Translations under genes and position numbers: made by a program
Shown: positions 14,458 to 17,932 of the stretch, piece by piece
Position numbering within the stretch: position 1 is the stretch's first letter
Layout: the number at the start of each line of letters is the position of its first letter
From: Desulfobacterales bacterium
GTDB taxonomy: Bacteria; Desulfobacterota; Desulfobacteria; Desulfobacterales; JAFDCJ01
Direction: 5' to 3'
Assembly (NCBI GenBank): GCA_030066155.1
Contig: JASJCE010000019.1
Location: 1-35,092, forward strand
DNA length: 35,092 nucleotides
The notes under the pieces: generated by a model
Databases searched by the model: none
What the model was told of the DNA's origin: nothing
Seen by the model: the letters and a program-made list of their open reading frames with translations, nothing else

Positions 14458-15291
14458 TTAATTCTTCATTTCAAGCGCCGTTTCAGTCAGTTTTTTGACG
14501 GCAGCCAGATACGCCTGCAGGCCTCGCATGAAAATGTCGTTGTGGTTGGCCTCGGGGATTTTAAGCAGGGTCTTGTCGTCAGCCGGACTGGCGTCGTACA
14601 AAGCCTCACCATCTGCAAAGGGGATAATGTGGTCATATTCGGCATGAATGATCAGGGTCGGCCTGTCGACTTGCTTTATTTTATCAACATTGCGAAACCC
14701 CTTTTCCTCCTTGAAGCCCAATCGCTCCGCATCGATTCCCAGCAACCGCAAAAGCGGGCCGGCATAGGCGAATCCGCTTTCAATGATTAGACCATCGATA
14801 TTGGAATCATGCACCGCTGCCAGCTCCAGTGCAGACGCGCTGCCCAGAGATCTGCCCATCAGGATGATCGGGCCGCGCCACTCGTTGGCCTGCAGCCAGT
14901 TGCAGACATATTTAAAAATGATATGGCAGTCCGTCATCATGGCGCTGACAGTCGGCCGGCCCGTTGAACGACCGTATCCCCGATAGTCCACCGCCAAAAA
15001 ATTGATTCCCATCTGATTGTAGACGCCGCCCAGCTCGTCATAATCGGCAACAATCTCGCCGTTGCCGTGGAAAAACAAAATATTGGGACCGGCAGGCTGC
15101 ACCATGTGAAAGCGAGCTCCGATGGCTGCATCATCTGCAACCGGTATCATTTCGTCCGTCGCGCCTGATGCTGAAGATTCCGACCGAGCCGAGGGAAATG
15201 GCGAATCGGATTCAGCCCGCGGGTGAAACAAAAACATCAGCACTTCCGGTCGATCCAGGACCGAGTAGTCGATAGGGGATTGGGTAGTCAT
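14458..15291 (-). CDS. Alpha/beta hydrolase
   Basis: 277 aa; ILFFHGNGE, nucleophile motif LMGRSLGSASALE, DHIIPFADG, NHNDIF. Confidence 0.88.
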   Translation of the reverse strand: MTTQSPIDYSVLDRPEVLMFLFHPRAESDSPFPSARSESSASGATDEMIPVADDAAIGARFHMVQPAGPNILFFHGNGEIVADYDELGGVYNQMGINFLAVDYRGYGRSTGRPTVSAMMTDCHIIFKYVCNWLQANEWRGPIILMGRSLGSASALELAAVHDSNIDGLIIESGFAYAGPLLRLLGIDAERLGFKEEKGFRNVDKIKQVDRPTLIIHAEYDHIIPFADGEALYDASPADDKTLLKIPEANHNDIFMRGLQAYLAAVKKLTETALEMKN

Positions 15292-15709: not shown

Positions 15710-16204
15710 TTACTCGATTTCCCGCACCGCCAGCACGCGGCAGCCGGCTTTATCATGGACATCTACCGTGAAAGGGCTGCCGAGATTATAATTAAAGGCC
15801 ACCGGCAACCCTAAGGCGCTGTTCGAGCTCCAAACCAGTATACAGCTGATTTGGATTTGAGGAACTATTTTGACCGAATGGCCGCATGCTGCTTCATAGC
15901 CACTGTAATCCGGGCTATCAAGGTACAGGCCCTCCAATTCTGCGATGGTCGGCAGCCGCCAGTTTTCATACTGTCGGCTGACAGAGTCTGACAACCGGTT
16001 TTTTATCCAGGACTGGGCGTCTTTCCAGTAAATATCGTCCTGGTTGTCGGTTTGAGTCCACATCAGTCCCGATGTTGCATCGGTGACCGTGCCGTCGTTG
16101 TTTTGGGTAAAGCGCTCCTGTGCCAGGGCCGGGAATGATTTTAAACCAGCCAGCTCTGTGAGGAAGACAAATAAGGCGACGATAAAATAACGTTTTTTCT
16201 GCAT
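15710..16204 (-). CDS. Secreted DUF1566 (Lcl C-terminal) domain protein
   Basis: Signal-peptide-like N-terminus; GTVTDATSGLMWTQ, WKDAQSWI, NWRLPTIAELEGL, WSSNS motifs. Confidence 0.85.
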   Translation of the reverse strand: MQKKRYFIVALFVFLTELAGLKSFPALAQERFTQNNDGTVTDATSGLMWTQTDNQDDIYWKDAQSWIKNRLSDSVSRQYENWRLPTIAELEGLYLDSPDYSGYEAACGHSVKIVPQIQISCILVWSSNSALGLPVAFNYNLGSPFTVDVHDKAGCRVLAVREIE

Positions 16205-16243: not shown

Positions 16244-17932
16244 CTATCGATCCGAATAGGGCACGAACCCATATTTGCGATATATATTCTGGGCGGTTGG
16301 CAGCCGTAAAAAATTCAAGAACTTTTGGGCGTTGTTCGGATGAGGCGCATCCGCCAGCCTGCAAGCGTAATAGTTTATGTGGTCCCTGCGGTCAAGTTTT
16401 TCCCCCGGTTCGACCACATCATGCTCCAGGCCTCGGGTGGCAGCATGTGCAGCTTCGGTGGCCCAGACCGGACCCACGTCCACTGTGCCGCCGGCAATGC
16501 GCAACGGTGTTTCGCGATGATGCACCACCGTAAAAACAGTTGTCCCTTCGGCGCGCTTTTCTTCCATAATACGCTCGACCAGTTCGTCTCCACCGGCCTC
16601 TCGGTACATATCCATGATATGCACCGCGATATCTTCATTGGCCGGATCCGGCTGAGATATACGCACCGAGTTACGACCCAGATCCGTTACACCTTTGATG
16701 GCGGCCGGGTTGCCGGGCGGCACCATCAAGGTCAAGCGATTGTGAAGGTAGAGGTAGTAGTCATTTTCCCTTATACGTCCGGCAGCTTCCAATGTTTGCA
16801 TCGATTTGGCGCTGACGGAAGTAAATATATCCGGGTATATTTGAAGCAATTCTCCGTTGTAAACCGCTCCGCCGGCCATAATTTGCTTGAGCTCCAATCC
16901 GGGCGGCAGCGTTTCGTAGAAAATTTTTTTGATTGTCGGATTTTCGGTTTGAAATGCCGCGATGATTTCCGCCATGGCCATGAACTGGTTGCCGGCCATG
17001 AACAGCACCAGGTCCGCTTCCTGCACCAGATGCAGGCCGTGCAAATCATCGGACCGCGATGATGGAATCACCGGATAGGAATCCTCGACCGTCATGTCGA
17101 TTTCAGGTTGATGGGCATCCTCAATGTATTTGAGAGCCCAGGCTGCAATTAGGTTGCCGGCATAAAACGAATCCTTCCTGTTCATCAGCAGGTGGTCAGC
17201 CCGGTCCAGGGAAACGAAGCTTTTGGGATGGCGTGCGGCCTGGAATATTTTGGCCGCGTTATCGATGCTGACCGTATCGTCGGTCGGCGAGTGCAGAATC
17301 AGCAGGGCCTTCTTCAGATTGCGGATCGTTTTCTGCATAGGGACCGTTGCGAGGTCATCAAGAAACTGTTTTTTTATCTTAAATGTTCTGCCCGCCAGAC
17401 AGACATTGGCTTCGCCCCGGCGTTCAATGATCGCCTGTGATTCACCGAGGGCGTGGGTCACATGACGCGGGTCGGCCGGTGCGGCAATCGTAATCACGGC
17501 CACCGCAGACGGTATTTTCGCGGCTGCCTGCAAAACAGCCGCCCCGCCCAGGGAATGACCGACTAATATCTTCGGCGCACCGTAATTTTGCGCCATGAAT
17601 TCAGCGGCGATGATCAGATCGTCGACGTTGGATGAAAAGTTGGTATCGGCAAAATCCCCTTCACTTTCCCCCAGTCCCGTAAAATCAAAGCGCATCACGG
17701 CGAAGCCTTCCCGATTCAGAGCGCGGCTGATGTTGCTGATGGCCTTAATATTCTTGGTGCAGGTAAAACAATGGGCGAACAGAGCGTATGCACGCGGTTT
17801 AAGGTCGTCGGGCCAGTCCAACCGGGCCGCAAGCTTCTGACCGGCTTTATTGGTAAAGGCAAGATTTTTAAACCGCATGGCGACTCGCTGGAAAAAAAAT
17901 TTGCGGTTATACTGAAAGCTCAAGTCATGCAC
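16244..17932 (-). CDS. Fusion: N-terminal alpha/beta hydrolase and C-terminal ModA-like substrate-binding domain
   Basis: Single 562 aa ORF (alternative start MRFKNLAFTN at 17878). N-half: AHCFTCTKNI, GLGESEGDF, VGHSLGGAAVL, HSPTDDTVS, ADHLL. C-half: LVLFMAGNQFMAMAEIIAAFQTENP, PDIFTSVSAKSMQTLEAAGRI, RLTLMVPPGNPAAIKGVTDLGR, FLNFLRLPTAQNIYRKYGFVP. Confidence 0.85.
   Translation of the reverse strand: MHDLSFQYNRKFFFQRVAMRFKNLAFTNKAGQKLAARLDWPDDLKPRAYALFAHCFTCTKNIKAISNISRALNREGFAVMRFDFTGLGESEGDFADTNFSSNVDDLIIAAEFMAQNYGAPKILVGHSLGGAAVLQAAAKIPSAVAVITIAAPADPRHVTHALGESQAIIERRGEANVCLAGRTFKIKKQFLDDLATVPMQKTIRNLKKALLILHSPTDDTVSIDNAAKIFQAARHPKSFVSLDRADHLLMNRKDSFYAGNLIAAWALKYIEDAHQPEIDMTVEDSYPVIPSSRSDDLHGLHLVQEADLVLFMAGNQFMAMAEIIAAFQTENPTIKKIFYETLPPGLELKQIMAGGAVYNGELLQIYPDIFTSVSAKSMQTLEAAGRIRENDYYLYLHNRLTLMVPPGNPAAIKGVTDLGRNSVRISQPDPANEDIAVHIMDMYREAGGDELVERIMEEKRAEGTTVFTVVHHRETPLRIAGGTVDVGPVWATEAAHAATRGLEHDVVEPGEKLDRRDHINYYACRLADAPHPNNAQKFLNFLRLPTAQNIYRKYGFVPYSDR

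Follow-up and report, generated by a model that had tools for sequence, protein, structure and literature searches.

The window, that is the whole stretch of DNA analysed here, comprises 35,092 nucleotides from a Desulfobacterales bacterium. Its minus strand carries a frame of 562 codons running from GTG at 17932 to the stop at 16246-16244. The frame is uninterrupted, as the earlier sequence-only reading had described it (giving no strand), and the plus-strand frame over the same stretch holds stops. Relatives of the encoded protein begin, with the motif M(R/Q)FK.L.F, at the residue equal to M19 (ATG 17878). Because of this conserved family start, the fused protein is likely 544 aa long, its gene occupying 16244-17878. 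On the same strand lie the downstream neighbour, a protein with an Lcl_C domain (15710-16204, assigned by Pfam), and a second alpha/beta hydrolase gene (14458-15291). The source is an uncultured bacterium that bears dsrA and probably reduces sulfate. Its assembly is a draft in 543 contigs, 87% complete and with 5% contamination, and the fusion rests on this single assembly.

The two halves of the fused protein

Residues 19-272 (17117-17878, minus strand) form an alpha/beta hydrolase domain of the serine esterase type. Pfam abhydrolase families match residues about 45-271, and the solved proteins closest to this N-terminal half belong to the esterase-OsmC family, namely 5cml (phmmer E=4.8e-92) and 9wo1; the attribution to that family, already made from the letters alone, is thereby upheld. 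S127 (in GHSLGG), D218 and H247 stand where the family motifs place the catalytic residues, and the domain is 74-77% identical to five proteins of genus mates. The OsmC domain expected at the C-terminus, with its two conserved Cys, was not found in the fused protein by a Pfam search, again as previously noted.

Residues 280-562 (16247-17095, minus strand), beginning with an old initiator Met at 17095, represent a cytosolic ModA-fold binding protein. Pfam SBP_bac_11 (PF13531) matches residues 308-556 (E=7.8e-36), the AlphaFold model of this half has a mean pLDDT of 93.1, and Foldseek finds ModA-type proteins as best hits (4kd5, E=1.3e-15, TM-score 0.70 by query length). Over its full length, the half is 53-70% identical to stand-alone proteins. 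The previous description of a molybdate/tungstate-type domain was thus right about the fold, with the ligand part open to doubt. The ModA model TIGR01256 gives the window protein 29.3 bits against a cut-off of 62.5 bits, and in a hand alignment, placed by eye, the positions of the ModA oxyanion serines appear to be taken by the invariant motifs FMAGNQF and TLPPG. For both reasons, molybdate or tungstate binding by the C-terminal half seems doubtful.

The junction at base level

Between the halves lie seven linker residues, 273-279 (17096-17116, minus strand), which in a comparison by eye with genus mate G007 correspond to the old gene end and the intergenic region. They include a TGA at 17105-17103 that matches the hydrolase stop of G007 (locus L013) and is probably the ancestral one. 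After 7 bases it is followed by the old binding-protein ATG (17095-17093), with no obvious ribosome site ahead of it. Counted by eye, the distance from the last KYI codon to this TGA is 17 bases. The TGA is consequently not in frame, and the open frame of the hydrolase continues into the binding protein. In G007, also read by eye, the hydrolase TGA is followed by 8 bases and a binding-protein ATG in another frame.

Gene order in relatives

Separate genes are found in G034 (L016/L060), L064 (= L117), G429 (L119) and G409 (L123 = L076), where the binding protein has a gene of its own, located after a hydrolase-OsmC gene. In L060 a similar Lcl_C protein comes next (judged by eye), and synteny is thus kept across the join. 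A chimera of unrelated DNA was rejected on the basis of this shared order of hydrolase, binding protein and Lcl_C, together with even G+C: 53.7% in the hydrolase half and 53.5% in the binding half, with 61.5 and 60.4% at third positions. Near 17050, where the sequence-only reading had suggested looking for a frameshift or chimeric read, the fused frame has no stop.

Within the genus, OsmC is missing in all five hydrolases found in other species, which end 1-9 residues past a KY(I/L) motif. Four genus mates (G001, G002, G003, G005) have a second hydrolase gene directly after the first, and no binding protein was detected beside the hydrolase. The fifth, G007, carries directly after its hydrolase a broken binding-protein copy (L013:485-840), from which residues equal to about 319-439 are deleted, with a further deletion and a frame change near the end. 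These data speak against the idea that a ligand-binding domain has replaced OsmC: the genus lacks OsmC in five of five hydrolases, and the gene immediately downstream already encoded the binding protein. We consequently rejected a one-step OsmC swap, the genus being without OsmC independently of the fusion.

Two side observations concern the hydrolase and its surroundings. In another family of the order (G488), the hydrolase at L122:2305-3060 has no detected OsmC and its relatives do have one, which is possibly a separate loss. Further, five genomes (L009, L011, L012, L013 and L016) carry, next to the hydrolase, a gene that contains a TGA in frame, the surrounding residues reading IPV*PxCNQTV (for example L013:1810-2670, minus strand). 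It probably encodes a selenoprotein with a UxxC motif, which may be GrdB-like. No such pattern was detected in the window.

Frequency of joined frames

A match spanning both halves was obtained in one of 390 genomes of the order, that of the window alone. Two apparent further cases of the full fusion were rejected, since the long frames in G501 (L116) and L017 resemble unconstrained upstream frames in G+C-rich DNA; in G463, a frame of 707 aa is interrupted by several stops. A different in-frame join exists at about 5900-6822 of L047, on a single-contig chromosome (G400, L120). Here the first ~18 hydrolase codons (MQAKRCEFTNATGQRLAA) lead straight into the binding protein and the remaining hydrolase is gone. 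Other combinations were encountered as well. At L058:5599-6837 a 23S_rRNA_IVP-type domain precedes the binding protein in one open frame of 413 aa, and at L118:388-2076 (G434) an ADP-ribosylglycohydrolase domain (PF03747, E=9.2e-59) precedes a hydrolase of the same family, likewise in one open frame. The joins in L047, L058 and L118 are open frames read from DNA and do not imply a single translated protein.

A signal-less family of binding proteins

The stand-alone relatives of the C-terminal half form a ModA-fold family without signal peptides, collected from 88 loci (for example L016:195-1049, L036:6001-6822, L074:6001-6816 and L100:6001-6810). In 84 of these 88 further loci, a start codon lies at most 15 codons from the conserved N-terminal motif PxIPxxRxDDLHNLE. 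In 53, an in-frame stop is present less than 20 codons upstream of the motif, leaving no room there for a signal peptide. A hydrophobic stretch farther upstream in the open frame was seen in L071 only. Judged from these sequences, the family is without a signal peptide and hence cytosolic.

These observations bear on several statements made from the letters alone. The fused protein indeed has no signal peptide at its start or at the junction, and the cytosolic location proposed for it agrees with the family. The reason, however, is different: the absence is a rule of the family, which has no signal peptide, and not a consequence of fusion. Signal-peptide loss at fusion was accordingly rejected, and the generalization that ModA-type domains are as a rule exported fails for this binding family.

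FMAGNQF, TLPP and HHRETP are invariant in the family and DVGPVW is nearly so. Among 297 Desulfobacterota genomes, 18 have a clear member (bits >190), and all 18 belong to the 144 with dsrA over the cut-off (hypergeometric 1.2e-6, uncorrected for kinship). In 50 further genomes carrying the gene, dsrA is over the cut-off in 43 and gives a weaker or partial match in 2 more; these carriers include Nitrospirota, Archaeoglobi, Thermodesulfobacteria and Bacillota. The gene can be regarded as accessory, being present in only about one in eight of the Desulfobacterota genomes that bear dsrA.

Ten of the recurring neighbour clusters around 80 loci were annotated. EF-G-like proteins, CutA1, AICARFT, Smr and peptidase M48 are among them, as are a pyridine nucleotide-disulphide oxidoreductase with a thioredoxin domain and a branched-chain amino acid ATPase; three of the ten have no Pfam match at E<=1e-10. 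There is no molybdate-type permease among these ten clusters. ModB and ModC were not seen beside the window gene, and the annotated clusters yield only the branched-chain amino acid ATPase in their stead. We found no specific model for these signal-less SBP_bac_11 proteins in Pfam or NCBIfam, and a literature search on the family returned nothing relevant. This cytosolic ModA-fold family is apparently undescribed so far.

Proposed origin of the fusion

We consider it likely that the frame arose by recent, lineage-specific fusion of two adjacent cytosolic genes on the same strand. The starting state would be a hydrolase of the OsmC-less genus type with a separate binding-protein gene a few bases downstream. 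A net change of 1 or 2 bases just ahead of the old stop would then remove termination, and translation would continue from the hydrolase, across a linker of about 7 residues, into the binding protein. The presumed product would stay in the cytosol and link a serine esterase to a binding domain that is still intact. The fusion probably came about by chance and its product is probably translated. Most likely, each half retains its own predicted activity, ester hydrolysis in one and small-ligand binding in the other. The main effect of joining may be that the binding protein stays expressed, as there is no obvious ribosome site before its old ATG. A ligand might also regulate the esterase, but this is conjecture.

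The main alternative to the observation is an artefact, in which an assembly or sequencing indel of 1 or 2 bases at the junction masks the stop and the genome really has two adjacent genes. A TGA does stand at the expected hydrolase stop, merely out of frame, the hydrolases of genus mates terminate close to the junction point, and gaining or losing one base within the 17 ahead of that TGA could be enough to separate the genes again. On the other hand, the other main genes of the window are open and by eye have no evident frameshifts, which suggests that indels are rare in this contig. Such joins also seem to occur in nature, as the different in-frame join on the single-contig chromosome (L047/L120) suggests. 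We regard an artefact as unlikely. A decaying locus also seems rather unlikely to us; in that case the fusion would be one step on the path by which G007 lost its binding protein, and the fused half would have ceased to function. This account overlaps with gene fusion as proposed above, which makes no claim on present function. The genus is indeed losing the gene: no copy accompanies the hydrolase in G001, G002, G003 and G005, and the one in G007 is broken. With four of five hydrolase-bearing genus mates lacking a detectable copy and the fifth copy broken, the fused binding half may be heading for loss as well. Nevertheless, its 283 codons are free of stops and frameshifts, and it departs from columns conserved to at least 90% at four sites only, where the family median is 2 and the highest value 7. 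Its end branch, 0.40, is close to the median of 0.31. The half shows no sign of decay, though for a young fusion this would be weak evidence of present function.

A selected ligand-gated enzyme, in which the binding domain senses a cytosolic anion or metabolite and switches the esterase in OsmC's place, appears very improbable to us. Such a design would fit two halves that both look intact, with the triad positions preserved and almost every conserved motif of the pocket retained, and two partners that are both cytosolic. Moreover, OsmC itself modulates the esterase EstRM, the activity of which rises upon OsmC removal (PMC5113044). Yet the arrangement is known from a single genome and kept by no genus mate, its linker consists of an old gene end and intergenic DNA, and the pocket does not appear ModA-like. 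We give similarly little credence to the broader proposal that the C-terminal half belongs to a metabolite-sensing cytosolic family tied to dissimilatory sulfur metabolism and is now a ligand-responsive domain fused to a serine esterase.

If the fusion of neighbouring genes is accepted, the locus presents a nearly base-by-base case of how a two-domain protein arises. One domain was lost, two genes came to lie a few bases apart and a small frame change followed, with the old stop and start still recognisable. The locus also points to an apparently undescribed ModA-fold family that stays in the cytosol and is nearly confined to genomes encoding dissimilatory sulfite reductase.

Comparison with known systems

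The N-terminal half belongs to the same serine-esterase family as EstRM of Rhodothermus marinus (PDB 5cml; PMC5113044) and shares its GHSLGG elbow. Unlike EstRM, the window protein has no OsmC domain and carries the binding protein in that place. EstRM stripped of OsmC remains an active esterase (PMC5113044), and by analogy with this independence an esterase domain that is free, or tethered differently, is plausible. The C-terminal half shares its fold with ModA/PBP2 type-II oxyanion-binding proteins (4kd5, 7tav, 8zj6 and 1wod, also PEB3, AcfC and WtpA). Identity to these is about 20%, however, and the window's family has no signal peptide throughout and different conserved pocket motifs (FMAGNQF, TLPPG, HHRETP, DVGPVW). 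From its closest counterparts, the stand-alone signal-less SBP_bac_11 proteins of dsrA-bearing prokaryotes, the window gene differs in being fused to a hydrolase.
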